A stretch of DNA of 56,698 nucleotides from positions 1 to 56,698 of IMG/VR virus record IMGVR_UViG_3300044646_000655. One strand, written 5' to 3'. The notes beneath the pieces are model-generated. The model was given only the letters and a program-made list of their open reading frames with translations. It did not search any database and had not been told where the DNA came from. A program made the position numbers and the translations under genes. The DNA is from a virus. The number at the start of each line of letters is the position of its first letter. The stretch's first letter is position 1. This document shows positions 2 to 53,979 of the stretch, piece by piece.

Positions 2-3000
2 TACGAACAACTAAGTTCTAATCCAGAATTTTCCGCAATGTTTGGAAGTAAGACTGAATTTGAAAACTTCATGACTGAAAATCCAGACGCTAATGATATA
101 TTGAAAGAAGCATTCGATGTCAATCCGATAGAGATGGACTTAAAAAAAAAAGAAGAAACAGAAAGTTTTACTTCTCCATCTCCTTCGGTTGGTCAAACGA
201 TTGAAAATGTCGATGTTGCACCTCAGCCAGTTGCCCAAACGCCCCAATTGGGAGTTCAAGATAACAATATCAATAGGCAGCCGGACCCATACTTAAATAA
301 TTTAAGAAATAGTCTACAGACTCAGATAGAAAAAATTTCTAAAAACCAAAGCCCATTCGGTGCTTTTATGGAGATTCAGAAACTTTCTAAAAGTGCTGAG
401 TACCAAAAGTATAAAAATGCTGGTAAATTAGATGACCTTTTGGGTTCTTTGAATACATCATTCAACGATGTATTCTTACAGAATCCTTCGTATTCAAGTA
501 GTTTTAATACTCCTAACGCCAAAAAGGATTTGGAGAATATTGGTATCACATCAAAGGTATCGGTTGGTAAAGGTCCTGTAAAGACTCCTTTGCAAATGGC
601 CTCAGAACAAACTCAAGCAGATTTAGATTACAAAAGAAAACAAGAAATCGAAGCTAGATTATATAGTGGTGGAGACATTGCTCAAAGAGGTAAACCTGGT
701 TACAGAGTAGAGCAAGAAGCAAAACAAAAAGAAAATGCTGAGAATATTCAAGCACAGATAAAAGCACCCAAAGAGACGTTGTCTCAAGCGTATGCTACTG
801 ACTTTATGGGAAGAAGAGTTGAGAAGTCAGAGAGTAGAATGGAAGAGGCTGATGAGCAAATTCAACCATTGGTAAATGACTTGCGTGACTATGTTTACTT
901 GAATCAACAAAGAGCAACATCTCAAGGTGATCAAGAGTCTGATGAATTCGCTAGGCAAAATTTGGCAAACAAAATTTACGATAAAGTAAAAGATAATATC
1001 GTTCCAGAAATCCTATCTGATTTTAAAGATAACTACGATGATTTAAACAAAGAAGGTGTTTTCTTTAGAAGAGATATCGATGGGTTTGTTGATGTTGATA
1101 ATGGTTATATTGCCGATAAAATAGATAAGTACTTCTTGGGTAAAGAACCAGGAGAAAAAGGATATATTCCAAATACTCCAGAGGGTAATGAGTACAGATA
1201 TCAATTAAGAGGTATTATCGAGGGTCGATTGAGGGCTGAGTATCGGGCTCAGATAGACAAAAGAGTAATAGAAAAAGAGTTAGGTAAATTTAGTGCTTCT
1301 ACAGATGAAAAAGAAGTAGAGAACTCTATACTATTAATTAAAAATGATATTGAATCATCTTTAGAAAATAAACAGATGGAGTTCCAAAAGAACTTAGAGT
1401 CTGAAATAAAAGAAAGAACGAAGTATTTTGCAGAGCAAAAAAGTTTAATTGTTCCAGAAAACTTTGACACACCTGAGCAATATAATTTGGCAGCTCAGAA
1501 CTATAACGATGAACTTGCTGCTTACAATACTGAGGTAACTAATAAAATTGCACAATTTGGCGAAGAGTTTTCCAAGTTTCAAAAACTTAAAAAAGATGAG
1601 TATTCTCAGCGTTTAGATGAATTAGGAACTATTTTTCAAAATAGAACTTCTGAGGAATTTAAAGAATACAATAAAAAAGCATTAGAGGTTCTAAATAAGT
1701 ACAAGCAAAGTCAAGTAGATAAGAATGCATTTGATTTTACTGATGGCAGTAAAATTATGATGCTTGGAGACTTTGTTCAGTCTTCTCTAGCTAACTTTAT
1801 GAGATCATCTCTTGAGATGTCTGGTGTCAAAGATTTAGATATCGGATTCGTCAATAGAACAATTAATGATATGGCCACTTTTGCTAGTGGTAATGCTTAT
1901 GCTGGTAATAGTTTATCAAATGCTCGTTCTTTCTCAGAAGGCTTTGGTGCTTTTGCCCAACAGATGATTGACCAATTACCGACAATTGGTGGTGGTGCAC
2001 TCGCTACTTATTTAACTGGTAATCCTTACTTGGCTAGTACGTTTCTTATGTACACAGATATGGCAAGGGAAAGCGTGTCTGTTAGAGACGAGATTTTAAA
2101 TGGTGGAGGTAGTGTTGCTGATGCTGATCGTGCATCTAAAAGAATAGCACAAGCACATTTAGGTATGATGCCATTCTACTTTGCACAAGGTTCACTCTTG
2201 TTTGGTAATAAGGTTGGTTCTACTGCCTTTTGGAAGAATTACTTAAAAGCAACTCCTCTTGAGTATGGAGTAGAATTAACCCAAGAGATTATACAGCAAT
2301 ATACTAGTGACAAAGAGACAGGTAAATTAACTATACAATCGGTAAATCCAACAACAGGTGAAGTAGAGACAAGGGATAAGACTATGTTGGAGTATTTGGC
2401 TACAACAGGAAAAGATTTAGCAATAGATGTTTTACCTACTGTGGCAACCTTCGGTGGCGTTCAAGCAAGAGGTGAAACTACAAGGGCACTAAAGGTAGAA
2501 AGTGATTATGCAGACGTAAGTAAATTCCTAGGAGACTCTCATCAATTGGATTACTTCAATGATTTGTATTCAGTTATGGGTGAAAATGCTGCGTATGCAC
2601 TTCCTGATATGTTACGTTTTAGAGGTGAAATAACTCAGCAGCAATACGATGACTTAAAGAATAAACTTCCGAACTATATTCAGAAAATCCAAGAGGTACA
2701 AGATGCTGGTATTTTGAATTTAGATGATTCTAGATATTATTTGAATCGTCTACAAGAGAAAGAAATGTTAGAGCAGAAATTAAAAACTGCTCGGACTCAG
2801 ACATCTAAAAACGCAACACAAATCAAACTAGATGAGGTAAATCAAAATATAGATGATGTTATAAAGGGTAAGGAGTTATCTTATACTAAGATTTCATTTG
2901 CCAATGGAATGTCTGTAGTTTTAGACAATAAGCAAGTAGATGGTTATCTCAATAACTTAGAAAACCCTATTGCTAGAGTATTGACTAATGAATTTAGAGA

Positions 3001-6000
3001 TGGTAATGGTAAAGCAAAACCAATTGCTACTTTGCAGACCGATGATGCGAAGTTGAATAAGAAATTAAATAAGTTGTTTGATCTCAAGAAAGAAAGAGAA
3101 GGAGAGCAAACTGTTGAAGGTGTGGACTTAAAAGTAGAAAATAAGATTGACTTTAACAACGATGATAATATTCAAGATATTGCTAAAGAAAACAATTTAG
3201 ATGAGGCTGTTGTTCAGTCTCGATTTAACCAGGCAAAGAATGCTCAAGCTGTTCTAAATGAGAAAATGAGTGGTGTTGAGATAGTTTTGTTAGCAGATAA
3301 AGACTTTAAGGCATTGATGCCTAAGGTTGGAGGAAATGTTAATTCTAATGGAAACTTTGCATACACTTATGATAAAAAGACTAAGAGGTATAAAGCACAG
3401 ATACAAATTAATTTAGATAAATCAAACTCTAGAACTATAAATCACGAGTTAACACACGCCTTGCTTTTACAGAAGTTTGGTGAAGATGTATTGGCATTCC
3501 AAGATTTTCGCCAAGGGTTAACTAAGGTGATGAAGAATAGCGACATAAAAAACTTAGAGGAGTTTACTAGTCAGTATAATGAGTTAGATAAGTTTGAAGA
3601 GTTTATGGCTGAGGCTGCTGGTTTGTTGTCTCAAGAGTACGAGGGTTCGGTCTCAGATCTTAAGAAGAGCAAATTACAAAATATAGCATCTTACATCTCA
3701 AAGTATGTATCTAACTTAACCGGAGGTACTGTTAATCTATTTAGAGATTTAAATAATACCGATGCTGCAATAGAGTTCTTTAATACTTTGTCTCAGAAGA
3801 CAAATGCTACTCAAGAGACTCCTGTAGTAACGCCTGAGACCCAAGAAACCACAGTTACTCCAATGGAGAGTAAGTCTCAGCAAACACCCGAAGTCACTAC
3901 TCAACAAGAACAAATAACACAATCAATATATGAAAACAAACCAAGAAGAGAAATTTCCGACTTTGGAGGAATTTCAGAAGAACAATCCCTTTTACCAACG
4001 AGCGGCAGCAAGATTGGCATTTCGGGAGAAAAGGCGGCTTATGCGGCAAGAAGAGTTAGCACAGGAGAACGAAAAACAGGAAGCGTCCAAGAAGAAATAA
4101 AGGCTTTTAGGGCAATCCAAAGAGGAGAAAAACCCGATGCTGAGTATCTAAGAGAATGGGCCAAGAACAACAACTTTTTTATTGAAAGAAAGGAGTTGGA
4201 CAAAATGATTACCAAAAATAAACTCAAAGAACTTCCAGAAGGTACAGAATCTAGAGTTTTCCTTGGGTCTCAGAAAAACTTTGTTTACAAAATATCGAAT
4301 GGTAGTAAAATGGCTGCTACTTGGAATGATGTTTTCAAGAGAATAGCAGCTCATAATTTCTTGTTTCCTGATACCTCTTATGAGATTATGGGTTTTACCG
4401 ATATAGGTGATAATCTAGGTATGGTATTGAAGCAAGAATATATTCCTCACGAAACAGGATTAAATCAAGATGAGGTTTATGATTTAATGACCGCAAATGG
4501 CTTCGATACCAACCCTAAAGAAAAATGGAGAATGGAGGGTAGGAATAAGACATTAGGAGTTGTAATTGATGATTTACATTCTGGAAACGTAGTTAGGGAC
4601 TTGGATAGAAATCAAGAACCTGCTTTTATTGATCCATATATAACATTTTTACCCGATAGTTATTTAGAAAAACTAATCGAAAAGAATATCGATGAGGAAT
4701 TTTCAAAAGATACTGAATTAGAAAGTATCGCAATAAAGACAACAACACCACAAGAAGAAATAACTCCTACAGAAACGATTGAAGAAGCAGGAGAAATGAA
4801 TGAAGGGACAAAACCTTTTATTGAACAACCTATCGAAATAGATGTTGACATCTTAAGCAAATCTCAGTTGGGCCAAGAAATTAATATACCTTCAGAACAA
4901 TTATTAGGAGGTAAACAAGTAGATGTAATTGCCGAACTAAGAAAATTTAAAGAAGACAATGGTAGAAATCCAAAAGTTTGGTTTTGGATGGCTGATCAAT
5001 TAAAAAGAGGGATGTATGAAAACCCAAAAACTGGTGTTACACATTTCTTAGAGGGTGGTTATAATTTTGCTAATGACCCTAAAAATGTTGAAAATGAAGA
5101 AATTTGGGCAACTGGTTTAGATGAGAAATTATTAAATACAAGACTTCCTGCTACAGATTTTATTTGGTTAATGGCTGGGTCTCCGAATACATCTTTTAAC
5201 TTTTCTAAAGGTACAAGTAAAGCATTAGTCAAAGAAATTGAAGCAGGTCTTAAAAACAATATAGGGAAGACAATAGAAGGTGTATCGATAAATAATGGAA
5301 CATTTGATGAGTTTGTAAAAATTGCTGAAAAAATGCTACCATCAAATGTTAAGAAATGGGATAGTTTTTTAAGTGCAATCAAAAATCCTAATATGATTGA
5401 AACTTCTGCAAGAAAAACATTCGCAGAAACATTACTTCACGAGGGTGGCGATAAAAAAATTACATTACCATTTCAGCAATTTGTACATCAAGAGTTAGGT
5501 GTCCCCACTTTAAAAGAATTTTTACCACTAGTTAGAGAACCATTTCTGATTGAAAATGATTTCAAAAATGGAGATATGGGTATTTTACTTAAACCTAATG
5601 GTAAAGTAAAATTCAATAGTGGCTCACACGATACTTATCAAAATGCTATTTTAGGGGAGGTTGTTGGTTTCCCAAATAGAAAAATAAATGTAAAAGAAGT
5701 TTTACCTAAAAAAGCATTAGAGGTTATTTCGAAAGAAACTAATCTGCCTTTGGAAAAACCAAGTGAGCCAGCAATTATCAAAACTGCTGTTGGTGATTTG
5801 GGTAAGGTTTATGCGGCAGAGGATTTGAATACTTTTTTAAGTAAATCTCAGAAAGTTCGTTCGGAAAAATCTAGTGGTACAACTCAAGTCGCTACTACTA
5901 CTGGCTCTTATATAAAAGCTGCTAATTTAATTAAGGACATCCAAGGGGACGTTTTGGACTATGGGGCAGGATTGGGTCTCGGAACAGACGCAATGTCAAA

Positions 6001-9000
6001 TACTCTAGGACGTAAGGTAGATTCATTTGAACCTAATCCTGAAAGATGGCAAGGTAAAGAAGAAGCAACATTTACTAGTTCTGAAGATATAAATAAAAAA
6101 TACGATGGTATTGTTTCTTTAAATGTATTAAATGTTGTACCTAAAGATATCAGAGACGCAATCGTTACAGACATCTATGAGAAGTTAAATGTTGGCGGTA
6201 AGGCAGTAATTAGCACAAGAGGGTGGAATGGTGATGTCAAAGCGGCTAAGAATGCTGTTCTTGGTCCAGAAGAAAAAAGTCTTATTATAACTAGAAAACA
6301 AGGCGGTAAAGATGTAGAAGTATTTCAAAAAGGTTTCGATGGTAATGAATTAGTTGATTATGTTAAAGAGTTATTGGGTGATAAAGTAAATGTCGTTAAA
6401 AATAATACTTTTGGAAAAAGTGGTGTTATTATTACTAAGCAGCAAGAGTTCACTTCTAAATCACAACTAGATGCCAATCAGATTAATGCTGAGTTCAATC
6501 AAATAACTAATCAAGGTGGTTCGGTCTCAGATGCATTAGATAATCTTATTGACATGGGCTATGGTAAGAAAGACATCCAAGAACAACTTGGTAAGAATAC
6601 AATAAGTGATGACTTTTATAACCAAAGAATAACTCAAAAAGGATTCGAAGCATTTGAGAAAATCAGAGATACTTTTGCAGATAGAAAAACCAATCTAATA
6701 ACAGAGATTGAAAATATGTCCGGGATGGACATTGCAGATATTAGAGCAGACCTAAAGCAGAACGGATACAATGACGTAGAAATATTCAATGCGATGGTTA
6801 GTGGTGACTTTGCACTTAATGAAGATTTAGAAAATGTTTTCGGTGCTGAGTTTAGAAAGACTATCGCCAATCTTTTCGAAAGAGAGGGTGAAGTTGCTAA
6901 TTTAGAGTTCTTAGAAGACTTGACTGAAGAAGGTAGAGCATTAAAATCTACTCATAAATTAGGAGATATTGCAGGAATGTTCCAAGAGTCTGGTTTGGTG
7001 TTCGCAGATGCCTCTGTGATGATTGAGTATCTGATGAGTCAAATGGCATTGCCAACAGAAGTAGCGGCCAAAGAAATGCGTAGACAACTAGGTGAATTAC
7101 TTGATAAGTTAAAACAAGCACCTGGAATGTTCGAAAAAGAGGTCGAACTGAAAGAAGACTTGTTGAGATATTCTAATCTTTTGAGTTTCGCAGGTAGAAT
7201 ATTGGCTACAGGTCGTAACCTATTCCCTAAGTCTATGGCTTCTCTAATAGAGCAAAGTTTGGCTAAAGAGGGAATTGTCTTGACTCAGAAACAAAAAGAA
7301 ACACTTGCAGGTCTTGTTGCTGATTTTAATACTGCTACGGCTACAGAAAAGCAAGCACAAACTGAACTAAACAATGGAGACTTGTCTGACCAGGCTTTTC
7401 AAGCGTATCAAGCAGCACAGAAAAACTTAGGTTTGGCAAATGTTCGCCTTATGCAGTTCTTGAATAATAGAAAGCCAACATATTGGAATGAGGTATTAAC
7501 CTCTGGTGGTAGTAGAGGTTTGTTAAATTTAAGTACTGTTGTGTTGAGTATAACTTCGAACATAGAAAACTTATTGTATAGTTCATACGACCCAAATGGT
7601 ATTGCGATCAGAAAACTCAGAGATAGTTTTAAGGATGGAATAGCAGGAAATACTCTTAGCTTTAACAATTGGCGTTTGGCTTATTCTTTATCTAGAAGAA
7701 ATTCATTGAATGAAATGAATTTAATGGCTAAGTATGGTGCATTGGGTTCGGTTTCAGATAAAAACTTCGATAGTTTTGGTACTGTAAACTTCTTCCGTGA
7801 GCCTCAAATTGTTTACAAATGGGTTATTACTCAGATGGAAAAATTGTCAGGAAAACAAGCAGCAAATATGACTGACGAAGAGTTTGTAGATGCTATGGAC
7901 TTAACCTTACAAAGAATGAACAATCAAGCAGATCCGAAAGTAAGAAGTGGTAAAACTTATAATATTGCTAAAGCAATGTTTATGAGCACTTTGGGTATTG
8001 GCTCGCAAGTTACAGAAGGTGTCGGACGTACTATGGCATATGGTGGTGATATACTTTTTGGAAAGTTGGCTGCAACAAGAGCAATGCTTGACTACTTTAG
8101 CAATATAAACAATGAGAAATTCTCTCAAGGTTTATTTGAAAACTTTTTAGACGGTAAAAAAGACTTAAGTAAAGAGTCAATGCGTTCTATGATATCTATT
8201 ATGTCTACTTATGCAGAATTAAATTCTAAATTCGAACAAGCTGGTTTGAAGAGAGTATTTATGAATGACAATGGAGTAAGTAAGATGATTGGTAAGGGTA
8301 GAATGGGACTGAAGCAGAAAGTTCGTCAACTTGGGGCTCAGATTAACAAAGGCGAGGAGAAGAAATTATCACTTGCCGCTGTTAAAAAACAAGCATACCA
8401 AGTTGGTGATGTTGCATTTTGGACTCTTATGCCATTTATAAAAGTTCCTACTAACTTCTTGGGTTCTGCAATAAGTAAAACTGTTCCTTTTGTATCGATG
8501 CCTAAATATGTATTTAAGGAGTTTTCATATAGAAGAGAACTAGCTGAATTCAATAAAAAATATCCAGAAGGTAAAAAAATATCTGATAATAAGAAAAAAG
8601 CCTATGAGACAGCAAAAGTAGATTTATTCTTGAAGAAAAGGGATTTGAATAATAGTGCTGCTGAGGTTATAACTAGTATTGAGTTGAGCGTTATATCAAT
8701 GATGGCTTATGCTTCTGGTGCTTTATTGACCGGAGGTTCTCCAGAAAAAGAAAAAGAACTCAAGAAAAACGGATTAAAGGGTAACTCAATAAATTGGAGT
8801 TTGTTCTCTGAATTTATTGCTGCCGCCTTGAGGAATGAAGACTTGAAGAATTTCGCAGTTAAGAGAGGCGGTGTAGTTAAAAAAGGTGATAAAGTAATGT
8901 CTCTTGGTAACGCTGGTTTTATGGGGTATTCTATGGGGCTTTGGGGTTCTGTTTTAGACTCTGTAAAAGAAGGTAAAAATTCTAATATAGTAGAGGTAAT

Positions 9001-10039
9001 GAATCCAGAGAGTGGTATCATAGGTGTTATGATGTATCAGATGTTTGGAAATGGTGTACAAAACCTACCGATGTTACAAGGTGTTGCTCGTGTTGGACAG
9101 TTACTCAAGGAAGATAAATCTGAAAACAAATTTGAAGAATTTACTAGTGGTACATTGAGTACTTCTTTGGCTACTTTTTTCCCTTCGTTTGGTTCATTTA
9201 AAAGCAAAGCAGAGGCAGAGAATATTCAAACCATAAGTGATATAAATACACAATCAGAAGAGTTTAATTTACCTACTTCACTTGGTAGAGTTTCATTGGG
9301 TGTAGTTCAAAAGTTAAGTCGAAATGTTCCTTTTGATGCTGGCTATAATCCATATTACAAGGCCGCAATAGGTATCATGGGAGAGGACTTAAGCAATAGA
9401 GTTACTTTTTCAGAACCTGGCAGTTGGGAGTCTTATGTAGAGGCCATGTTTAACCCATTCCAATTTAGAAGGTGGTCTCCGGGTCTCAGAGAAAATGAAG
9501 ATTCTAGATTATACGAACACTCTACATTCATACAGAGTAATTTAATCAAGTATGCTGAAATGTATAAACTAATAACAGGTAGAACCTATGATTATACATA
9601 CGAAGGTAAAACTTCAGATTTCTACACTATGATGACTATGCCTGTTAAGAATGAATTAGAGTACGATGGAACAGGTATTGTCACAAAGTATTCTGATGTC
9701 AACACACCAAATAAGTTTAAATACTCTTTGCCTAATGATTTGTATCGTGAAGAACTAAGAAAAAGAGGTGAGATTATGTTCTCGAATACTCAGAATCTAA
9801 GAAATGTATTTGAAAATTTAAACGCAAGTATAAAGTTCAATGCATTCTTAGATAATACGGAACTAGTCAAAGATGATATAGTCAAGGCTTTTGAAGCCTA
9901 CAGAGCTAATATTCAAGCGGCAAATGATGGGTGGAAGAGTGACTATACAACCAATAGAGAGAAGAAATATCTCAAGATTATGTATGACAGAGGTGTTATA
10001 GATGCTGAACCTTTAAAGAGAGTCGGAATTTTGGAATAA
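2..10039 (+). CDS. Giant polyvalent virion protein (5' end outside window)
   Basis: The frame is open to the left edge and the codons before the first ATG (38) read as normal protein, so the N-terminus is missing. Residues are counted from 38. The first 560 or so residues are charged and helical. Hydrophobic stretches lie near 635-680 and 706-728. A zinc-protease motif HELTH is at 1136-1140 with a possible third ligand in EEFMAEAAG (E1192). A degenerate protein-kinase-like region near 1410-1530 has VYKI, IDDLHSGNVV and FIDPY, as in kinase domains of polyvalent proteins. A Rossmann methyltransferase-like domain near 1965-2140 has LDYGAGLGLG and NVLNVVP. The remaining 1,200 residues are helical with a hydrophobic segment near 2886. 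Fused enzyme domains in one long phage protein are typical of polyvalent proteins thought to be injected with the DNA; the injection role here is inference. It leads the plus-strand structural block. Domain calls are from motifs only. Confidence 0.8.
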   Translation, partial: YEQLSSNPEFSAMFGSKTEFENFMTENPDANDILKEAFDVNPIEMDLKKKEETESFTSPSPSVGQTIENVDVAPQPVAQTPQLGVQDNNINRQPDPYLNNLRNSLQTQIEKISKNQSPFGAFMEIQKLSKSAEYQKYKNAGKLDDLLGSLNTSFNDVFLQNPSYSSSFNTPNAKKDLENIGITSKVSVGKGPVKTPLQMASEQTQADLDYKRKQEIEARLYSGGDIAQRGKPGYRVEQEAKQKENAENIQAQIKAPKETLSQAYATDFMGRRVEKSESRMEEADEQIQPLVNDLRDYVYLNQQRATSQGDQESDEFARQNLANKIYDKVKDNIVPEILSDFKDNYDDLNKEGVFFRRDIDGFVDVDNGYIADKIDKYFLGKEPGEKGYIPNTPEGNEYRYQLRGIIEGRLRAEYRAQIDKRVIEKELGKFSASTDEKEVENSILLIKNDIESSLENKQMEFQKNLESEIKERTKYFAEQKSLIVPENFDTPEQYNLAAQNYNDELAAYNTEVTNKIAQFGEEFSKFQKLKKDEYSQRLDELGTIFQNRTSEEFKEYNKKALEVLNKYKQSQVDKNAFDFTDGSKIMMLGDFVQSSLANFMRSSLEMSGVKDLDIGFVNRTINDMATFASGNAYAGNSLSNARSFSEGFGAFAQQMIDQLPTIGGGALATYLTGNPYLASTFLMYTDMARESVSVRDEILNGGGSVADADRASKRIAQAHLGMMPFYFAQGSLLFGNKVGSTAFWKNYLKATPLEYGVELTQEIIQQYTSDKETGKLTIQSVNPTTGEVETRDKTMLEYLATTGKDLAIDVLPTVATFGGVQARGETTRALKVESDYADVSKFLGDSHQLDYFNDLYSVMGENAAYALPDMLRFRGEITQQQYDDLKNKLPNYIQKIQEVQDAGILNLDDSRYYLNRLQEKEMLEQKLKTARTQTSKNATQIKLDEVNQNIDDVIKGKELSYTKISFANGMSVVLDNKQVDGYLNNLENPIARVLTNEFRDGNGKAKPIATLQTDDAKLNKKLNKLFDLKKEREGEQTVEGVDLKVENKIDFNNDDNIQDIAKENNLDEAVVQSRFNQAKNAQAVLNEKMSGVEIVLLADKDFKALMPKVGGNVNSNGNFAYTYDKKTKRYKAQIQINLDKSNSRTINHELTHALLLQKFGEDVLAFQDFRQGLTKVMKNSDIKNLEEFTSQYNELDKFEEFMAEAAGLLSQEYEGSVSDLKKSKLQNIASYISKYVSNLTGGTVNLFRDLNNTDAAIEFFNTLSQKTNATQETPVVTPETQETTVTPMESKSQQTPEVTTQQEQITQSIYENKPRREISDFGGISEEQSLLPTSGSKIGISGEKAAYAARRVSTGERKTGSVQEEIKAFRAIQRGEKPDAEYLREWAKNNNFFIERKELDKMITKNKLKELPEGTESRVFLGSQKNFVYKISNGSKMAATWNDVFKRIAAHNFLFPDTSYEIMGFTDIGDNLGMVLKQEYIPHETGLNQDEVYDLMTANGFDTNPKEKWRMEGRNKTLGVVIDDLHSGNVVRDLDRNQEPAFIDPYITFLPDSYLEKLIEKNIDEEFSKDTELESIAIKTTTPQEEITPTETIEEAGEMNEGTKPFIEQPIEIDVDILSKSQLGQEINIPSEQLLGGKQVDVIAELRKFKEDNGRNPKVWFWMADQLKRGMYENPKTGVTHFLEGGYNFANDPKNVENEEIWATGLDEKLLNTRLPATDFIWLMAGSPNTSFNFSKGTSKALVKEIEAGLKNNIGKTIEGVSINNGTFDEFVKIAEKMLPSNVKKWDSFLSAIKNPNMIETSARKTFAETLLHEGGDKKITLPFQQFVHQELGVPTLKEFLPLVREPFLIENDFKNGDMGILLKPNGKVKFNSGSHDTYQNAILGEVVGFPNRKINVKEVLPKKALEVISKETNLPLEKPSEPAIIKTAVGDLGKVYAAEDLNTFLSKSQKVRSEKSSGTTQVATTTGSYIKAANLIKDIQGDVLDYGAGLGLGTDAMSNTLGRKVDSFEPNPERWQGKEEATFTSSEDINKKYDGIVSLNVLNVVPKDIRDAIVTDIYEKLNVGGKAVISTRGWNGDVKAAKNAVLGPEEKSLIITRKQGGKDVEVFQKGFDGNELVDYVKELLGDKVNVVKNNTFGKSGVIITKQQEFTSKSQLDANQINAEFNQITNQGGSVSDALDNLIDMGYGKKDIQEQLGKNTISDDFYNQRITQKGFEAFEKIRDTFADRKTNLITEIENMSGMDIADIRADLKQNGYNDVEIFNAMVSGDFALNEDLENVFGAEFRKTIANLFEREGEVANLEFLEDLTEEGRALKSTHKLGDIAGMFQESGLVFADASVMIEYLMSQMALPTEVAAKEMRRQLGELLDKLKQAPGMFEKEVELKEDLLRYSNLLSFAGRILATGRNLFPKSMASLIEQSLAKEGIVLTQKQKETLAGLVADFNTATATEKQAQTELNNGDLSDQAFQAYQAAQKNLGLANVRLMQFLNNRKPTYWNEVLTSGGSRGLLNLSTVVLSITSNIENLLYSSYDPNGIAIRKLRDSFKDGIAGNTLSFNNWRLAYSLSRRNSLNEMNLMAKYGALGSVSDKNFDSFGTVNFFREPQIVYKWVITQMEKLSGKQAANMTDEEFVDAMDLTLQRMNNQADPKVRSGKTYNIAKAMFMSTLGIGSQVTEGVGRTMAYGGDILFGKLAATRAMLDYFSNINNEKFSQGLFENFLDGKKDLSKESMRSMISIMSTYAELNSKFEQAGLKRVFMNDNGVSKMIGKGRMGLKQKVRQLGAQINKGEEKKLSLAAVKKQAYQVGDVAFWTLMPFIKVPTNFLGSAISKTVPFVSMPKYVFKEFSYRRELAEFNKKYPEGKKISDNKKKAYETAKVDLFLKKRDLNNSAAEVITSIELSVISMMAYASGALLTGGSPEKEKELKKNGLKGNSINWSLFSEFIAAALRNEDLKNFAVKRGGVVKKGDKVMSLGNAGFMGYSMGLWGSVLDSVKEGKNSNIVEVMNPESGIIGVMMYQMFGNGVQNLPMLQGVARVGQLLKEDKSENKFEEFTSGTLSTSLATFFPSFGSFKSKAEAENIQTISDINTQSEEFNLPTSLGRVSLGVVQKLSRNVPFDAGYNPYYKAAIGIMGEDLSNRVTFSEPGSWESYVEAMFNPFQFRRWSPGLRENEDSRLYEHSTFIQSNLIKYAEMYKLITGRTYDYTYEGKTSDFYTMMTMPVKNELEYDGTGIVTKYSDVNTPNKFKYSLPNDLYREELRKRGEIMFSNTQNLRNVFENLNASIKFNAFLDNTELVKDDIVKAFEAYRANIQAANDGWKSDYTTNREKKYLKIMYDRGVIDAEPLKRVGILE

Positions 10040-10627: not shown

Positions 10628-11013
10628 TGACTTTTGCTACTCTATATAGTTACATTGGAACTTACTTAGCGGTTCGTAAGGCTATCGTAGAAACTGAGGC
10701 CAAAATAGAAAATGCTAAGAAGTATGACAAGCCTTGTTGTGACCTAGAAAAAAGTCAGAAGAAAGGTTTGTTTTTATTGTGGTGCTTAGAAAATATCAAT
10801 TGCTACGAGGATCAAACAGATAGATTCCTTTCTGTAGCAAACAGATGGAGTAGAAATTGTGGGGATTGCAGCGTTTCACAAGCAGAAATAGATGCATTCT
10901 TATTGACAGAAAAAGGTGATGAACTAACTTACATTTCGGGTCTCAGCGGATATCTTTTGACTCAAAATGGAACTTGGTTATTACAACAAAACGGATATCA
11001 AATTATATTATAA
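10627..11013 (+). CDS. Hypothetical structural-region protein (128 aa)
   Basis: I chose the ATG at 10627 because it overlaps the previous stop in a TAATG junction; an upstream TTG at 10615 would also be in frame. The protein is helical in its first half with several cysteines (CCDLEKSQ, NINCYEDQ, CGDCSVSQ). It ends in a repeat-like stretch, with LTYISGLSGYLLTQNG followed by TWLLQQNGYQIIL. That end resembles short beta-repeats of fibre proteins. Function unknown; position suggests a virion or fibre-assembly role. Confidence 0.65.
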   Translation: MTFATLYSYIGTYLAVRKAIVETEAKIENAKKYDKPCCDLEKSQKKGLFLLWCLENINCYEDQTDRFLSVANRWSRNCGDCSVSQAEIDAFLLTEKGDELTYISGLSGYLLTQNGTWLLQQNGYQIIL

Positions 11014-22572: not shown

Positions 22573-22605
22573 TTTGTTTTTGTGCTGGGGCTCAGATTAT
22601 ATTTG
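22573..22605 (+). promoter_or_regulatory. Bacteroidetes-type promoter before the MazG-like gene
   Basis: TTTG at 22573-22576 and TATATTTG at 22598-22605 are 21 bases apart; the ATG follows at 22614. A copy of the dispersed GGNCTCAG motif (22588-22595) lies between the two boxes. Confidence 0.6.
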
Positions 22606-43396: not shown

Positions 43397-43409
43397 GGGA
43401 CTCAGACTA

Positions 43410-45119: not shown

Positions 45120-45455
45120 TCACAATTCCTTATGATTAGACAAATCTTCCTTAAGTCTACGGAGGAATGATTCTTCTCCATCGTCTCCTGATAATAACCA
45201 ATCTATACGATGGGCATATATCTGAGCCCTATGCAAAAGGTTAACTGCTTCCTTGAACTTCTCTATTACCTCTGGAGGATATTCATAGTGGTTTATGTGA
45301 CCTGGGTTTCTTTCTAGCCATTCTTTATTTACCCAGGGTTCTTGTCTGAGTTCTTCCTCTGTCTTTCTTCTACCGTTCTTTTCTATTTGGGTTTCTATGC
45401 TTTCTGCTATATACCCTATCTTGTATTGATCGTAATCAAAGTGTCCTCCGCTCAT
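45120..45455 (-). CDS. Conserved MSGGHFDY-family phage protein (111 aa)
   Basis: It begins MSGGHFDYDQYKIGYIAESI and ends with RIDWLLSGDDGEESFLRRL, two blocks of a small protein found in many phages and prophages of several phyla. Function is unknown. Helical and acidic. Its ribosome-binding sequence GGAGGAAACAACAATG is strong. It is the last gene before the terminator at 44973. Confidence 0.75.
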   Translation of the reverse strand: MSGGHFDYDQYKIGYIAESIETQIEKNGRRKTEEELRQEPWVNKEWLERNPGHINHYEYPPEVIEKFKEAVNLLHRAQIYAHRIDWLLSGDDGEESFLRRLKEDLSNHKEL

Positions 45456-45966: not shown

Positions 45967-46188
45967 TTAGTCTAAACTTAATCCGTCTTCATTCATCTTT
46001 TGATATAGCATATCTCTTATCTCTTCATATACCTTATATTGCTCTTCTGATAACTTATCGTTGTACTTAAGCTGAGACCGAAGATGTTGGTCGAAGTCCC
46101 AAACCATAAGTCTCCACTTCTGTCCATTGACAGCATCCTGGAAATCCTCTTGATCATCCGGGAGATTGAATTCTATTGTTGCTTTCAT
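45967..46188 (-). CDS. Conserved hypothetical acidic protein (73 aa)
   Basis: ATIEFNLPDDQEDFQDAVNG, then WRLMVWDFDQHLRSQLKY and a helical end. I recognise this pattern (KATIEFNLPDD...) from phages of varied hosts where it is annotated hypothetical. It follows directly below the tRNA-like element, and no Shine-Dalgarno is seen; its leader would include that element's 3' end. Confidence 0.65.
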   Translation of the reverse strand: MKATIEFNLPDDQEDFQDAVNGQKWRLMVWDFDQHLRSQLKYNDKLSEEQYKVYEEIRDMLYQKMNEDGLSLD

Positions 46189-46991: not shown

Positions 46992-47160
46992 TTTGTTTTT
47001 TTTGTCTTGCTCTAGCTTCTGGAGTGCACTTGAATTCCAAGTAATATTTCTTCTGTTCCTTTAGAGTACACTCTATACACTTTTTACTGAGGCCGTCCTT
47101 GTTCCACTTGTGCTTGTAGTACTTGTCCGTTATCTTCTTGCACGTTTTGCATTCCTTCAT
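46948..47160 (-). CDS. Zinc-finger-like basic protein (70 aa)
   Basis: Cys pairs CKTCK (4-7 region) and CIEC (about 28-31) separated by a basic loop suggest a Cys4 zinc site, followed by a positively charged helix (EARARQKKQNDKYRQLKQ). DNA or RNA binding is likely. Overlaps the neighbouring genes by 77 and 44 bp. Confidence 0.55.
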   Translation of the reverse strand: MKECKTCKKITDKYYKHKWNKDGLSKKCIECTLKEQKKYYLEFKCTPEARARQKKQNDKYRQLKQTTQKA

Positions 47161-47404
47161 TTTCTTTGTGTTTCATTACTTCCATTATGGCGTATACGTC
47201 TGTCATTGATACATTGGTTGTTCTGAGGCCGTCCCCAGTCTCAACAAAATTAATAGCATCCTCAACCGTAGTTGCATCTACAGGATAATTTTCCAAGACT
47301 CCCTTTTTATTTATCTGGAGTAGTTCTTCCATACTCTTCTTGCTCGCCCATACGAAAGTCTTCATATAGCGGAGGTATTGTTTTTTATCTATTTTCGAGT
47401 TCAT
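47084..47404 (-). CDS. Hypothetical protein (106 aa)
   Basis: Basic N-terminus (KIDKKQYLRYMKTFVWASKK) and helical, Gln-rich C-terminus (GMQNVQEDNGQVLQAQVEQG). The last 25 residues overlap the zinc-finger-like gene in another frame; its start overlaps the methyltransferase end by 20 bp. No family recognised. Confidence 0.5.
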   Translation of the reverse strand: MNSKIDKKQYLRYMKTFVWASKKSMEELLQINKKGVLENYPVDATTVEDAINFVETGDGLRTTNVSMTDVYAIMEVMKHKENEGMQNVQEDNGQVLQAQVEQGRPQ

Positions 47405-48320
47405 TTATAGTTGCAAATATACGGTAAGCGATTTGTGGAACAATGGCGTTACCATATCCCATTAAGGATTCTTTTCTCCACTTTGAAAAGGTAAGTCCGT
47501 CCAATTCAGAGGGAAGCCCATCATCTCCGCTACAAAGTGGGGATTTAACTGGGAACCAGGTCCAAGCCTCGGATGGTCCACCTTGTTGGGAATAAACATT
47601 GTCATCTGACGGAGAGTCATTTGTAGATTTACGTTGTTCTCTTTGTGTCTCTGACTCCTGGCGATATATGTCTCCGGCCTTGTTGCTGTGTTCCAATCTT
47701 GAGCGTTCGGAGTCGGAAGTATTCCCCTCTTGAAGATGAATCCTGTCGCTACCTCTTGTGCTAGTGTCCCGGAGTTCCCGAACTTCTGTTCCTTCTTGCT
47801 CAGATTCTCGCTGTATCCGTCCATCGCTGCTGGTGTCTTTAGCAACAATGTAAACCCTGTCCCTTTTGTGTGGGGCATTGATGCTGACAGCTGGAAGTAA
47901 AAACGTTTGGATTTCGTATCCTTCACTTTCCAAATCAGCGTACACCTCTTCGAGAACCAATCCGTCCGACCAACTAAGCAGTCCACGAACATTTTCCCCC
48001 ACGACATAGCGTGGTCTGATTTCTCTGATTGCTCTGTGGAACTCTGGCCAAAGATGGCGTTCGTCTTCTTTTCCCATCCTTTTTCCAGCGATGCTGAAGG
48101 GCTGGCAAGGAAATCCACCGGAGAGGACATCGATTTTTCCTCTCCAAATTTTAAAGTCAGTTGTTTTGATGTTGTCATAACTTTGGGCCTCAGGCCAATA
48201 AAAACTACATAATTGTCTACTAAAAGGATTGATATCGCAATGGAACTTATTGGTCCAACCCATCCATTCCGCTGCGAGATCAAATCCTCCTATGCCACTA
48301 AATAAACTACCGTGATTCAT
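47385..48320 (-). CDS. C5 cytosine methyltransferase (Dcm type, 311 aa)
   Basis: The motif set is complete: FSGIGGFD (I), GGFPCQPFSIAG (IV, catalytic Cys72), GENVRGLLS (VI, E109), HKRDRVYIV (VIII) and GYGNAIVPQIA (X). It should transfer a methyl group to C5 of cytosine in a specific sequence. The target-recognition part between VIII and X is hydrophilic and irregular (ESEQEGTEVRELRD, SNKAGDIYRQESETQ), as in relatives. For about 717 bp the same DNA carries a second conserved reading frame (47462-48178). Neighbours are an HNH protein (14-bp overlap) and small genes. No restriction enzyme is obvious, so it is probably protective. Confidence 0.88.
   Translation of the reverse strand: MNHGSLFSGIGGFDLAAEWMGWTNKFHCDINPFSRQLCSFYWPEAQSYDNIKTTDFKIWRGKIDVLSGGFPCQPFSIAGKRMGKEDERHLWPEFHRAIREIRPRYVVGENVRGLLSWSDGLVLEEVYADLESEGYEIQTFLLPAVSINAPHKRDRVYIVAKDTSSDGRIQRESEQEGTEVRELRDTSTRGSDRIHLQEGNTSDSERSRLEHSNKAGDIYRQESETQREQRKSTNDSPSDDNVYSQQGGPSEAWTWFPVKSPLCSGDDGLPSELDGLTFSKWRKESLMGYGNAIVPQIAYRIFATINELENR
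47462..48178 (-). CDS. Overlapping +1-frame gene: methyltransferase-associated conserved protein (238 aa)
   Basis: Lies wholly inside the methyltransferase gene in another frame. The ATG at 48178 gives MTTSKQLTLKFGEEKSMSSP. Several blocks look like a real protein and not a chance frame: VDFLASPSASLEKGWEKK, CTLIWKVKDTKSKRFYFQL, LLLKTPAAMDGYSE, LPTPNAQDWNTATRPETY and SQLNPHFVAEMMGFPLNW. I recognise this order (SSPxDFLAS, TWK, LLPTPxAxDW, LNPxFVxxMMGFP) from proteins encoded beside or over Dcm-like genes in Bacteroidetes phages and prophages, where it is annotated as methyltransferase-related although it has no catalytic motif. Role unknown; perhaps a specificity or partner subunit. An earlier ATG at 48283 is less likely. 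Confidence 0.7.
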   Translation of the reverse strand: MTTSKQLTLKFGEEKSMSSPVDFLASPSASLEKGWEKKTNAIFGQSSTEQSEKSDHAMSWGKMFVDCLVGRTDWFSKRCTLIWKVKDTKSKRFYFQLSASMPHTKGTGFTLLLKTPAAMDGYSENLSKKEQKFGNSGTLAQEVATGFIFKRGILPTPNAQDWNTATRPETYIARSQRHKENNVNLQMTLRQMTMFIPNKVDHPRLGPGSQLNPHFVAEMMGFPLNWTDLPFQSGEKNP

Positions 48321-48591
48321 GATACTCTCTTTTTAATTTTTCAGCAATCTCCATTGCTCTCGAATATGTCTTCATCTCCTTCCTCTTCCCAAATTCCCAT
48401 TTCTGATGACATTGCATACAATATAGCATCCAATTTTCGGGATGTGTCCTCAAACTCGGATACGCTCCTTTGGTAATGATATGCGATACAAACATCGGAC
48501 TGAAGTGTAGTAGTCGCAACCCACACTCCTCGCACTGGTGATTCTGCCGTGTTGACCACATATCTTTGTACCATTGGATATCTCCTTTCAT
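48307..48591 (-). CDS. HNH endonuclease-like protein (94 aa)
   Basis: Zinc-type HNH arrangement: CEECGLRLLHFSPMFVSHII (CxxC and first His) , HPENWMLYCMQCHQKWEFG (Asn, CxxC-H). Small HNH proteins of phages nick DNA in packaging or recombination or act as homing enzymes. It sits between the exonuclease and methyltransferase (overlaps 1 and 14 bp). Confidence 0.7.
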   Translation of the reverse strand: MKGDIQWYKDMWSTRQNHQCEECGLRLLHFSPMFVSHIITKGAYPSLRTHPENWMLYCMQCHQKWEFGKRKEMKTYSRAMEIAEKLKREYHESR

Positions 48592-49571
48592 TAACTTATT
48601 CTGAAAACTCTCGATCCGTTCTTATTGGGTCTCCAAGTTACCTTAGCCACTTCACTATTTATCATCGAGTAATTACCCATATGAGTTTTAATCATATTGG
48701 CGTGCTCTCTCTTACCATCTTCCATTGCTGAAATTTCAGAGTTGAGTTCTAAATAACGAGTGATGTGATGGTCAATCTCTGGACTACTTGCGATAGTCTT
48801 ATCTTCAGGATTGGAGAAACGCTCTGACAAATATTCAGAGTATGCTTCTGTCCCATCTGGCGGTGGAGCAAACTGATCGTAGTCTGTACCATTGGCAACG
48901 GCCTCACGACCTAACTTAACTCTTTCCCAAAAGTCCTCGGTGATATTGATAATGGAACTGATAATCTCCTCATCTACATCATACTCGTGTACCTTGAAGT
49001 TTCTTCCGTCCTCTAGTACAACCAGGTAACCCTTTTCAACTCCGAGGCCCATCATATAGGTTTGAAGCTGCAAGTAATAAGACGGAGGAATACCACCATC
49101 CCATTGCTTACTACTCCAACCACTAATGGTCTTAATCTCAGCGATTGCATCTACGTTATCTAGATTGATTGTGTTATTACGAACACGAATGTCCTTACTG
49201 ATAATCAATCGGTCTGGAGAAAAGAACAAGTGAGGAAAACTTGGGTTAACAATATAACCACTAGGCTCATACAAATGACGAACTTTTTTAGCCTCACGAA
49301 AGTTTTTAATCATTGTGGGCTCATCAGTCTCCCAAAACTCAAAGATATCTGCCACCGTCTGCTCAAGGATAGTACCCATAAACATAGGCATATTCTCAAC
49401 TTGCTTTTGTGGGATGATACCAATCTTTTGGTAGTATAACTCGGCCGGAGATTTCCAAGAGTTCACACCCATAAGTGTTCCAATCTCAGAAGCACCCAAA
49501 CCGTTATCTCTAAAGTTTAACCACTCTTGGTATTGCTTATCTTTACTGATTTGAATTATCTCTAGTTTCAT
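48591..49571 (-). CDS. YqaJ-type recombination exonuclease (326 aa)
   Basis: The lambda-exonuclease/YqaJ fold degrades one DNA strand for strand annealing. Motifs: WLNFRDNGLGASEIGTLMGV (residues 17-36), MGTILEQTVADIF (E70), FFSPDRLI (D120) and AIAEIKTISGWS (E145, K147), then WDGGIPPSYYLQLQTYMMG. After about 230 a helical extension continues to 326. Partners are the SSB-like protein just upstream and the RusA-like resolvase at 51098. No annealing protein of Bet/Erf type is recognised nearby, which may mean that the SSB-like gene or an unknown protein does that job. Confidence 0.82.
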   Translation of the reverse strand: MKLEIIQISKDKQYQEWLNFRDNGLGASEIGTLMGVNSWKSPAELYYQKIGIIPQKQVENMPMFMGTILEQTVADIFEFWETDEPTMIKNFREAKKVRHLYEPSGYIVNPSFPHLFFSPDRLIISKDIRVRNNTINLDNVDAIAEIKTISGWSSKQWDGGIPPSYYLQLQTYMMGLGVEKGYLVVLEDGRNFKVHEYDVDEEIISSIINITEDFWERVKLGREAVANGTDYDQFAPPPDGTEAYSEYLSERFSNPEDKTIASSPEIDHHITRYLELNSEISAMEDGKREHANMIKTHMGNYSMINSEVAKVTWRPNKNGSRVFRIS

Positions 49572-49809
49572 CTCTTGTTACCCACTTTTCAAAAGTTTCA
49601 GCGGTTTCTAATGTGAAATTCTTAAACTCTTCTACTGTGAAATTACCATCTAAACGTGGCATAATTGACTCTACAAACTGCACCGCAGCTTTGAGGCTTG
49701 ACTGCCTGATAATAGACAGTTGTTCCTGCCCATAGTGTTTCATATGGACAGGTTCAACTTTCTTACCGATTTTTGCAGCCAAGTTTGAATTACTTACTCC
49801 TCTTGGCAT
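49543..49809 (-). CDS. Hypothetical protein between SSB-like and exonuclease genes (88 aa)
   Basis: Begins MPRGVSNSNLAAKIGKKVEP and continues as helices (SLKAAVQFVESIMPRLDGNF, LETAETFEKWVT). Start overlaps the SSB-like stop (TAATG) and the end overlaps the exonuclease by 29 bp. Possibly a recombination accessory. Confidence 0.6.
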   Translation of the reverse strand: MPRGVSNSNLAAKIGKKVEPVHMKHYGQEQLSIIRQSSLKAAVQFVESIMPRLDGNFTVEEFKNFTLETAETFEKWVTRDETRDNSNQ

Positions 49810-50426
49810 TAGAATGGCAAATCATCATCTTCTTGTTCAACCTCTGCTTGTTTTTCTTCAAGCACGTCTGGTTCAGCAATCAAATTGTTAACGTGAGCAA
49901 CTTCTTTAATTTTAGCGTGAAACTCGTTTACTTTATCCATACGGAATGCTTCAACTTCGCTCCAATCAATTGAAACTAGTTCACCCTTTTTGTTAAATAC
50001 TTCTTCGGGGTCAGGCATACCTTCACCTTTTTTAAAAGCCCATTTAATTGTCTCACCATTCTGATTTAAGAACAAAGCAGAACGCTTCTTACCATCAATT
50101 TCTTTCAAAGACGGAACGAATTCAACTTTCTTTGATGGATCAATGTTTGGAGAACAATGTGCAAATGCAATGAAGTAAGATGTTTGCTTGGCCAACTGAC
50201 CAGGCTGATCTTCTCCTTTGATTCTGATTTGTAGTTGGTAAACTACATCGTCTTTCAAATCAATACATAACACTGGTCCATACTGAGTGTCACGAGTACT
50301 CATTCCTACGATGTAACCTTCTACTGAATCGTAAAGTTCATACTTCTTGTCACCTAAATACTTGGCAATTTTGCCTTCTCTAATTGTAAGATACTCACGA
50401 GTACCTAATCCTTTGTTTAATCCCAT
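49809..50426 (-). CDS. Single-stranded DNA-binding-like protein (205 aa)
   Basis: The C-terminal tip is EQEDDDLPF, the acidic DDDIPF-type tail by which SSB proteins contact partners. The body is beta-rich with OB-like strands (YGPVLCIDLKDDVVYQLQIR, TSYFIAFAHCSPN) and a basic middle (LKEIDGKKRSALFLNQNG). First gene of the minus block behind its own promoter, so it is made early. Together with the exonuclease it suits replication and strand-annealing recombination. It is longer than E. coli SSB (178) and not clearly alignable, so the call rests on tail, composition and context. Confidence 0.65.
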   Translation of the reverse strand: MGLNKGLGTREYLTIREGKIAKYLGDKKYELYDSVEGYIVGMSTRDTQYGPVLCIDLKDDVVYQLQIRIKGEDQPGQLAKQTSYFIAFAHCSPNIDPSKKVEFVPSLKEIDGKKRSALFLNQNGETIKWAFKKGEGMPDPEEVFNKKGELVSIDWSEVEAFRMDKVNEFHAKIKEVAHVNNLIAEPDVLEEKQAEVEQEDDDLPF

Positions 50427-50446
50427 AATTTTTCTATTGAGTAGTG

Positions 50447-50477: not shown

Positions 50478-50503
50478 AATTTTTTGTAAAATTGTATGAA
50501 ATT

Positions 50504-51159: not shown

Positions 51160-51502
51160 ACCATTGTCTGTTAATCAAGCCTGGCAAGGTAAAAGATTCA
51201 AAACCAAAAATTATCAAAACTACGAAAAGGAGGTTCTCCTAAAATTACATCCCTACACGCTTGTTATCAAAGAGCCAGTCGAACTAATTATCATTGTTGG
51301 TTTTAGCAATGCGGCCTCAGATGCAGACAACGCTGTAAAACCTTTTCTTGACATCCTTCAGAAAAAATATGACTTCAACGATAAGTATATCTATCGCCTT
51401 GTTGTTGAGAAAGTTATAGTCAAAAAAGGAGAGGAGTTTATAGAATTTTTCATAAAAAATTATGAGCCTCTTGAATACAATGTTGCAAATTCTGAAAATT
51501 GA
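51098..51502 (+). CDS. rusA: RusA-like Holliday junction resolvase (134 aa)
   Basis: RusA enzymes cut four-way junctions. The signature is present: LSVNQAWQGKRFKTKNYQNY near the start, and GFSNAASDADNAVKPFLDIL (three aspartates for magnesium, DxDN..K..LD) in the middle. No ATG is available in the right place; GTG at 51098 or 51107 is the probable start, overlapping the regulator by about 60 bp. It completes the recombination set (exonuclease, SSB-like) and could debranch DNA before packaging. Confidence 0.8.
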   Translation: MLSVKQSKKNTLLFSDRVEIKPLSVNQAWQGKRFKTKNYQNYEKEVLLKLHPYTLVIKEPVELIIIVGFSNAASDADNAVKPFLDILQKKYDFNDKYIYRLVVEKVIVKKGEEFIEFFIKNYEPLEYNVANSEN

Positions 51503-51798: not shown

Positions 51799-53979
51799 AT
51801 GGCGTTTACTATTACAAATCAACCAAAACAATTCTTAACGGAAAGCGAAAAGAATAAAATTTGGTACAAGGAGAACATCCAGTTCATAATGTCCCATTTC
51901 AACAAGAGACACGATAGGATTTCAAGAATTAGAAAAAAAGATGACTTAATGAATCCCATTGACGAGGTAGTTAGAATGTTTACTTACTACTTGGGGAGAC
52001 AAGACAACAAAGATTATTACTACACTACTCAAGACCAAAACAATTGTGATTTACCTACGGTATGGATCAATGGTCAAAAAGTTACATCTCTAGTTGACTA
52101 CATGGTAGGTAATGCTATCAAAATGGTGGAGAATATTGAACCAGTAGTAAAGGCTCAGAGTAAAAACGCAATCAATAAAAAAACGGACATTTTAGAAAAG
52201 GCATTGATGAAGTTTGATATGCCGGAACTATTTGAGATGCTTATGGAGTTTGGTTTGGAATACAAACCACTTGGGCCTCAGACTCCTCAGATGGAAATAC
52301 CCGAAGATGTTTATAGATACATGGAGTATGACTATCAAGAATACTCTGAAGTACTAGCTACTAAAATCTGTGAAGATATATTAAACAGAAATTCTTATAA
52401 GCACAAACTAAAGCAAGCTTTCTTATATACCTTGCTAGGAGGATATGTAGGAATAGAAAATAGAATTGAAAATGGTAAACAATACTTTGATCCTGTATTA
52501 CCTCATAACTTGATTGTAGACAGAGCAAAGGATGATGACTTTAATTCTGAGGCCCGATTCGTAGGAAAAGTAGATTGGTTAAACATCACCGACATAGTGG
52601 AGCGTTATCAAGATTACTTGACCACAGAAGAACTTGAGGAGATTAAGCAAATCAATATGAACAACTTGTATCAGTTGCTTGATTTGACTACTCACCCATA
52701 CGCTACAAACTGGGCGTTCAATGTAAATAATCTTCCAACCTTGGCGTGTGTTACTGGCTATTGGATTGGTATGAAAGATTTGGGTTATGAGAAGTCTAAA
52801 GACAAATTTGGAAATACTCACTACCAAAGAATCCGTAACGGAAGAAAAGGTCAGTATTGGACAAAGACTGTATACAAAGCTACTCTCATAGGCAACAAGT
52901 ATGTTGTAGAACATGGAGAGACTACGAACATTGTTCGTAAGCATGATAATCCTGGAGATGTAGAATTACCATTGAAAGTATTTATTCCGAATATGGTAAT
53001 GGGTGAGAATCGTTCTGTTGTTGCTCGTTTGCATCAGCACCAAGATCGTATTGATTACATCACCAATGAAATCACTAAGATGATGACTCGTGCCAAAGGT
53101 AAGGTGTATATCATCAACCGACAAAAACTTGGTACTTCATCTGCAAAAGATGTTATTACAGATTTCGAAAGAATGGGTATCCACATCACAGATGGTTCTG
53201 CTACCGGAGAAGATTTTGTAAGTGGGCAAGAGGCTCGTATGGTTGAAGTAGTTGATATGACACTAGATCCAAATGTGCAGCAACTTGTTGCACTAAGAAG
53301 AGAAGAAGAGCGTTTGATGGAAGAGATTGTAAACATTCCAAAGATTGCTCTCGGACAACAAAGCGGATATGTTGGTGCTAAAACTCAAGCAGGTACTATT
53401 GCACAATCTAACTTGGGAACAACTTATTTGTACCAAGGCTTTATTGAGTTCTTTGAAAAACAATTAGCATTTGCTTTGAACCAATATAAAATTTCATTGA
53501 TGGATGAGTCTGAAGATGAAATACCAATTGTAGGTACAAGAGGTAAAGAGTGGTTGAAGATTACCAAAGACTTCCAGTTTGAAGAACTAGGTGTTTACAT
53601 CCGTGTTAAAGACTTTATTGATGACCAATCTAAGGAGAGGTTGTTAATGTTGGCACAAGCTGCAATGCAGAACCAACAGATTGATATGTTAGACTACATC
53701 AGAATAGAAAAGTCTAAGACATATACTGAAATCTTGAATGAGTTGGAATACTCTTTGAATAAGAGAAGAAGAGACCAGGAAAAGCAGCAAGCCATAATGC
53801 AAATGATGCAAGAGGCACAAATGCAACAACAGATGGCTCAACAACAAGACTTAGCGTCAATGAAGGAAGAGGGAGCAAATTACAGAAAAGAATTAGACGT
53901 TCAAGGTAAGGTTGTAGATACTGCAATGAAGCAAGCATTATCTGAAGGTGGTGAACCACCCCAAGAAATGATGATGTAA
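51799..53979 (+). CDS. Portal protein (726 aa)
   Basis: The portal forms the ring through which DNA enters the head. Length, order (before scaffold and capsid) and features fit: a helical crown and stem, the typical block ALRREEERLMEEIVNIPKIA and the stretch GAKTQAGTIAQSNLGTTYLY before an amphipathic helix (FFEKQLAFALNQYKISLM). The C-terminal 60 residues are Gln/Met-rich (QMMQEAQMQQQMAQQQ), as in portals of large podo- and siphophages. Residues 1-110 include a polar arm (QDNKDYYYTTQDQNNCD). No known protease site seen. Confidence 0.85.
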   Translation: MAFTITNQPKQFLTESEKNKIWYKENIQFIMSHFNKRHDRISRIRKKDDLMNPIDEVVRMFTYYLGRQDNKDYYYTTQDQNNCDLPTVWINGQKVTSLVDYMVGNAIKMVENIEPVVKAQSKNAINKKTDILEKALMKFDMPELFEMLMEFGLEYKPLGPQTPQMEIPEDVYRYMEYDYQEYSEVLATKICEDILNRNSYKHKLKQAFLYTLLGGYVGIENRIENGKQYFDPVLPHNLIVDRAKDDDFNSEARFVGKVDWLNITDIVERYQDYLTTEELEEIKQINMNNLYQLLDLTTHPYATNWAFNVNNLPTLACVTGYWIGMKDLGYEKSKDKFGNTHYQRIRNGRKGQYWTKTVYKATLIGNKYVVEHGETTNIVRKHDNPGDVELPLKVFIPNMVMGENRSVVARLHQHQDRIDYITNEITKMMTRAKGKVYIINRQKLGTSSAKDVITDFERMGIHITDGSATGEDFVSGQEARMVEVVDMTLDPNVQQLVALRREEERLMEEIVNIPKIALGQQSGYVGAKTQAGTIAQSNLGTTYLYQGFIEFFEKQLAFALNQYKISLMDESEDEIPIVGTRGKEWLKITKDFQFEELGVYIRVKDFIDDQSKERLLMLAQAAMQNQQIDMLDYIRIEKSKTYTEILNELEYSLNKRRRDQEKQQAIMQMMQEAQMQQQMAQQQDLASMKEEGANYRKELDVQGKVVDTAMKQALSEGGEPPQEMMM

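Follow-up and report, generated by a model that had tools for sequence, protein, structure and literature searches.

In this work we analysed a stretch of viral DNA of 56,698 nucleotides, IMG/VR record IMGVR_UViG_3300044646_000655 (positions 1 to 56,698), referred to below as the window. It encodes a terminase, a portal protein, a weakly SU10-like capsid protein, a family-B-type DNA polymerase and a TOPRIM primase-helicase, together with a YqaJ exonuclease, an SSB-like protein, a serine recombinase, three methyltransferase-like genes and a polyvalent kinase protein of 3333 aa. The element under study is the one-wildcard 8-mer GGNCTCAG, which is present in 46 exact copies, 29 of them in plus and 17 in minus orientation, the first starting at position 598 and the last ending at position 52554.

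Copy number and placement of GGNCTCAG in the window

The count was compared with three null models. A Markov model of order 3 predicts 2.7 copies, corresponding to an enrichment of ~17-fold, and dinucleotide shuffles (n = 100) averaged 3.5 ± 2.0 copies and never exceeded 9. When the genes were shuffled among synonymous codons (n = 300), a mean of 3.3 and a maximum of 9 copies were obtained, compared with 43 observed in genes. All three models place the expectation at ~3, which rules out chance or composition as the source of the count, and GGNCTCAG takes rank 1 for over-representation among all one-wildcard 8-mers of the window. The near variant GGNCTCCG is likewise enriched (7 copies versus ~1.2 expected). 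These results bear out the first-pass annotation, which had reported the 46 copies on two strands as far above chance and had set two refuting tests beforehand, a codon-preserving shuffle with a similar count and a lack of the motif in close relatives. Neither refutes it, given the shuffle result above and the enrichment in relatives described below. The string itself was not found in the literature searched.

The wildcard is T in 18 copies, C in 12, A in 9 (by remainder) and G in 7, in agreement with the earlier tally. Because the copies are spread over several frames and over the two strands, and each reading-frame and orientation class is enriched 8.5–14.5 fold, amino acids cannot explain the word, and a protein motif is ruled out as its source; the contexts GSVSD, GSQ and GLR, cited previously to the same effect, agree with the sequence. 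About 90% of the sites lie within genes, matching the coding density, and only 3 of the 46 copies in the window and 69 of 765 in relatives are found outside them. Plus and minus copies number 21 and 6 in the plus block and 8 and 11 in the minus block, so the strand bias described before (11 versus 8 in the sense direction for the minus block) also holds. The copy-free stretches reported at 18.6–22.5 kb and after 52.6 kb are real (18.55–22.59 kb and beyond 52.55 kb), but the 4-kb gap is not unusual, since the longest gap expected by chance for 46 sites in 57 kb is ~4.7 kb by our own estimate. Separately, the major capsid gene (55010-56353) differs from most of the genome in being nearly free of GGNCTCAG, with a site in only 3 of 18 genomes.

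The copies take four forms. GGTCTCAG occurs on the plus strand at 3649..3656, 4266..4273, 6523..6530, 9482..9489, 10939..10946, 12509..12516, 16430..16437, 18544..18551, 29078..29085, 29279..29286, 31678..31685, 41919..41926 and 42683..42690, and on the minus strand at 3834..3841, 24101..24108, 32051..32058, 35483..35490 and 46072..46079, the last being non-coding. GGCCTCAG is found at 598..605 (in the gene of the 3333-aa polyvalent protein), 13925..13932, 23486..23493, 48186..48193, 51313..51320 and 52274..52281 on the plus strand, and at 10694..10701, 12689..12696, 26664..26671, 47087..47094, 47223..47230 and 52547..52554 on the minus strand. GGACTCAG lies at 2793..2800, 13541..13548, 28266..28273, 39001..39008 and 43398..43405 (non-coding) on the plus strand and at 32863..32870, 34186..34193, 36876..36883 and 41048..41055 on the minus strand. 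Finally, GGGCTCAG is present at 1245..1252, 8334..8341, 17685..17692, 22588..22595 (non-coding) and 24502..24509 on the plus strand and at 30571..30578 and 45222..45229 on the minus strand. The polyvalent protein mentioned here (38-10039) carries a kinase domain (Kinase-PolyVal) and is poorly conserved even in close relatives.

Selection, footprint and strand polarity

Aligned GGNCTCAG sites are retained 1.3–3.2 times more often than GC-matched control words. The clearest retention was seen against G002–G004, where 24 of 45 sites are kept compared with ~18% of the control words, and around half of the aligned sites turn over at 73% nucleotide identity. At synonymous third codon positions, the fixed bases of the word are conserved 0.07–0.20 above a baseline of 0.522. 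Individual sites illustrate this constraint. In the terminase large subunit gene, the site at 28266..28273 covers R443-D444-S445-D446 and is present in 55 of 74 relatives, in which codons 443–446 read (A/C)GG GAC TCA GA(T/C) while the adjoining codons are variable. The RNR gene carries a site at codon 158 (23486..23493), kept in 31 of 38 relatives, where the third base of the glycine codon, which is the wildcard, varies and leucine is encoded by CTC in every site-keeping genome. A second site in this gene, at codon 363 (24101..24108), is found in 20 of 38 relatives, and the antisense site near codon 297 of the primase-helicase gene (31678..31685) in 38 of 63. GGNCTCAG is under purifying selection at the DNA level, its sites being either kept in place or replaced elsewhere.

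The alignment of 345 non-redundant sites extends the word to a motif of ~20 bp, WW..g.TTS-GGNCTCAG-A...W, with preferences for WW at −9/−8, g at −5, TT at −3/−2, S at −1 (where A almost never occurs), A at +8 and W at +12. No fixed spacing or clustering was seen; instead, the sites avoid close neighbours, with 7 pairs within 50 bp compared with ~39 expected. More-even-than-random spacing is weak (P of 0.04–0.09 in three genomes, absent in others). Promoter association was not observed either, as 7 copies in 15.2 kb of upstream DNA represent no excess.

The sites are partly polar. Across eight genomes, the late block holds 147 sites on the late strand compared with 38 on the other, while codon constraints alone predict a strand ratio of ~1.25:1 in late genes. 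Sense and antisense counts in relatives rest on simple open reading frame calling rather than curated annotation, and, owing to common ancestry, counts pooled over relatives are not independent observations. The ratio of observed to expected copies in late genes is 15.4 sense versus 6.9 antisense, and such a sense excess could be produced by a signal acting at the RNA level in phage transcripts, a role considered in the first-pass annotation. However, antisense copies are still enriched 7–10 fold, early genes show ratios of 11.5 sense versus 10.1 antisense, and the primase gene, pooled over relatives, carries 20 sense versus 66 antisense sites. This argues against an RNA-level signal, which we now regard as very improbable, and suggests that the word acts mainly as DNA.

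A polar DNA site might alternatively be a transcription element, on which a late-acting DNA-binding protein would slow or silence transcription in one orientation, in the manner of the stoperators of cluster A mycobacteriophages, which work in one orientation only (PMC9283540). The presence of more than twenty asymmetric dispersed sites, and the strong agreement of their orientation in the late block with the direction of transcription, are in line with this explanation. On the other hand, stoperators occupy promoters and short intergenic spaces and not, as most copies here, the interior of genes, and the early genes lack polarity, with primase-gene sites mostly antisense. Moreover, no repressor-like gene is common to the strong-motif genomes, although fast-diverged repressors could escape detection, and there is no sign of lysogeny, because a search of 84,980 bacterial and archaeal genomes with polymerase patterns returned no relative. 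A transcriptional role therefore appears distinctly unlikely.

Occurrence in relatives, other phages and bacteria

A polymerase search of IMG/VR recovered 54 loci that are 57–99% identical, nearly all of them enriched in GGNCTCAG, with densities of 3–13 copies per 10 kb. Further members came from searches with terminase, capsid and portal, as did two sister clades whose capsid protein is ~65–69% identical. In total, nearly all of ~80 related IMG/VR contigs, most of which are fragments, are enriched, sister clades included, and near-complete clade-A genomes hold 28–46 copies each. Among the sister genomes, 37 copies were counted in G701 (3.0 expected), 32 in G697 (2.7 expected), 30 in G702 (3.5 expected) and 18 in G703 (1.3 expected), while further sister genomes show weaker enrichment. 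Distant portal homologs, used as an outgroup, contain no copies.

The exact extended motif occurs in 26 stretches in an IMG/VR scan; among the loci analysed, those enriched in GGNCTCAG are family members and the rest lie at background. In six other phage records, mostly from gut samples or hosts in the Bacteroidota, the word is absent or occurs once. Enrichment is confined to one uncultured phage family, and the background levels in these phage records, in the unrelated contigs and in the Bacteroidota genomes sampled below show that the motif belongs to this family. The GenBank phage collection contains neither a near relative of the window phage nor a portal match, and the family is sizeable and probably infects Bacteroidota.

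Other words are over-represented in its sister clades. Among palindromic words, those containing CCCGGG are over-represented in several of the sister phages G693, G694, G696, G698, G700 and G695 (loci L443-L458, L463-L466, L469-L471), and TGGATCC in G695 (24 versus 3.4). In G696 (L455-L458), where GGNCTCAG is weaker, CCTTNGGT/CCNAAGGT is over-represented (28 versus 6). In the window itself, the palindrome AGTATATACT occurs three times (19728-19737, 21624-21633 and 29702-29711; 0.07 expected). One relative, G003 (L070-L073), looks complete with repeated ends, and its IMG dataset number 2814122945 looks like that of a genome and not of a metagenome, a possible lead to the host.

The host of the phage is probably a member of the Bacteroidota, because TANNTTTG, the strongest upstream motif in the phage (53 versus 11), corresponds to the −7 element of Bacteroidota and is placed just before genes, and Shine-Dalgarno motifs are nearly absent. 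This raises the question of a host-encoded reader: GGNCTCAG could be the Chi of the host AddAB or RecBCD, or the site of another host protein, with the phage having accumulated copies in order to be spared or repaired. Chi is itself a dispersed asymmetric octamer that many lambdoid phages over-represent, and the difference in motif strength between sister phages is what a change of host would cause. Nevertheless, 44 Bacteroidota and 395 same-class genomes, which may not include the actual host, contain none with phage-like densities of GGNCTCAG. Outliers checked against their own composition are mostly explained by it, G391 being at most 2–3 fold up. Across 296 genomes from the phylum, a set which again may not include the actual host, the extended motif shows no enrichment, and in genomes with several extended motifs the copies are scattered and not in a prophage. 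Furthermore, the enrichment in the window far exceeds the medians of ~2–5 fold reported for Chi in lambdoid phages (PMC3784561). A host-encoded reader is thus rather unlikely.

Candidate readers and comparison with known systems

The genes common to the strong-motif genomes provide a short list of candidate readers. Common to the family are the DNA polymerase (28745..30685, minus strand), the TOPRIM primase-helicase (30835..32574, minus strand) and the terminase large subunit (26938..28755, plus strand). The serine recombinase (34593..35276, minus strand) is present in nearly all relatives. Homologs of the YqaJ-type recombination exonuclease (48591..49571, minus strand) and of the protein with an acidic DDDLPF tail, presumed to be SSB-like (49809..50426, minus strand), were found in 17 of 17 relatives tabulated. 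A putative replication protein (33985-34296) and virion proteins are shared as well, as is a putative small terminase (26594..26941, plus strand), assigned by its position upstream of the large subunit.

Several other proteins were rejected as the sole reader, having no detectable homolog in strong-motif relatives: the methyltransferases, the PD-(D/E)XK-like nuclease (25465-25908), the protein with a DnaA C-terminal domain (34277-34609), the XRE-like protein (50746-51159), the RusA-like resolvase (51098-51502) and the HNH protein (48307-48591). Homolog searches may miss fast-evolving proteins, and calls of absence are most secure for the near-complete G697 and G701, which have no homolog of the three methyltransferases, the nuclease, the DnaA-type protein, the resolvase or the HNH protein in the presence table. 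A comparison of gene presence between strong and weak sister genomes picked out no single gene. As for the rejected proteins themselves, 25465-25908 encodes a conserved clade-A protein whose D...ExK pattern is suggestive of a PD-(D/E)XK nuclease, with no family match, and the small protein at 34277-34609 carries the DnaA C-terminal DNA-binding domain (PF08299); Cellulophaga phage phi10:1 and a phage of Flavobacterium have annotated small genes of a similar DnaA type.

The three methyltransferase genes in the window had suggested that a phage enzyme methylates or restricts DNA at GGNCTCAG. For these three enzymes this proposal is largely refuted and appears scarcely tenable, because G697 and G701, in spite of their strong motif, have no homolog of any of them (other, unrelated methyltransferases were not searched for). 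The early block is spanned by G005, in which two of the genes, mt36 and mt48, are missing too. In addition, C5 methylases usually have short symmetric targets, unlike the asymmetric ~20-bp footprint of GGNCTCAG.

The putative small terminase deserves separate consideration, since it could recognise many equivalent sites, so that packaging would start at many places and on family DNA only. It is among the most conserved DNA-handling proteins (56–96% in the presence table of relatives), occurs in every relative with contig coverage of this region, and its gene, with a site at codon 24 (26664..26671), has 28.5 sites per 10 kb, among the highest densities of widely shared genes. However, a single pac site usually suffices for the headful phages that are known, compared with the tens of copies in near-complete clade-A genomes, and the orientation in the early block is mixed. 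The structure model of the protein is all-helical and of low confidence, and a fold search gave no useful match and no known terminase. A packaging tag read by the small terminase therefore seems improbable.

GGNCTCAG is a real, selected, dispersed, partly polar and family-specific recognition element acting at the DNA level. We tentatively favour the reading that it forms the core of a ~20-bp asymmetric protein-recognition element of one phage family, which a conserved phage DNA-handling protein may read as a self tag. A single shared protein, namely the YqaJ exonuclease, SSB-like protein, primase-helicase, polymerase, terminase or serine recombinase, would then read the tag as RecBCD reads Chi. 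A machine travelling along the DNA would encounter a tag every ~1.2–1.7 kb and might there switch its behaviour, by ceasing to degrade, loading a partner, or starting recombination or packaging, with the outcome that the phage's own DNA would be handled differently from host or competitor DNA. The occurrence of the phage's own recombination exonuclease and SSB-like protein in every relative tabulated supports a phage-encoded reader. The first-pass interpretation is partly supported: a host Chi is disfavoured, while a phage-owned Chi-like or packaging tag gives the best fit.

Several points weigh against this self-tag reading. Several shared proteins remain as candidate readers, and the "shared" status of genes is judged from sequence similarity and from metagenomic contigs that are near-complete. 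The early block of the eight genomes has no net polarity (57 sense to 52 antisense), a pattern not predicted by a simple Chi-type rule. Finally, the sister phage G694 has the shared genes and is near background (6 copies versus 2.4 expected), a combination that a host factor would explain better than a factor of the phage.

With slightly greater reserve, we propose that the family may own a Chi-like code, a dispersed polar word for self-recognition with a phage-encoded reader in replication, recombination or packaging, independent of the host's motif. In cells, Chi, uptake sequences and other words of this dispersed kind serve as self tags, and the Chi carried by phages is borrowed from the host; if the proposal is true, viruses are able to tell self from non-self on DNA by a system of their own. 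The idea is directly testable with the motif, the footprint and the short list of candidate readers, and GGNCTCAG can serve as a cheap marker for recruiting further members of this uncultured family.

For a phage recombination exonuclease, sensitivity to a short DNA word has a precedent in lambda exonuclease, which pauses sequence-dependently at GGCGA (PMC7496540). This pausing has been described at a single position, the left cos site, whereas GGNCTCAG is spread genome-wide, and the exonuclease here is YqaJ-type and a candidate reader only. The DNA uptake sequences (USS) of Haemophilus (PMC7811141) share a short strong core, weak AT-rich flanks and many dispersed copies with GGNCTCAG, but the latter is a phage motif, not enriched in the sampled bacterial genomes and with no uptake context. 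The Chi sites of RecBCD and AddAB (GCTGGTGG in E. coli) are similar in having an asymmetric octamer-sized core that is dispersed, tolerated inside genes, and selected in number as well as in place, and in their polarity, which GGNCTCAG shows in the late block. Unlike Chi, GGNCTCAG is unenriched in any sampled potential host, more strongly over-represented, equipped with flank preferences to ~20 bp, and limited to one phage family, which encodes its own exonuclease. Among phage systems, stoperators come closest as a precedent for sites that are dispersed and asymmetric (PMC9283540). GGNCTCAG differs from them in its position within genes, the lack of polarity in early genes and the lack of a shared repressor among the genes found, while in both systems tens of asymmetric sites are spread over the genome of a phage with a bias in orientation, seen for GGNCTCAG in the late genes.

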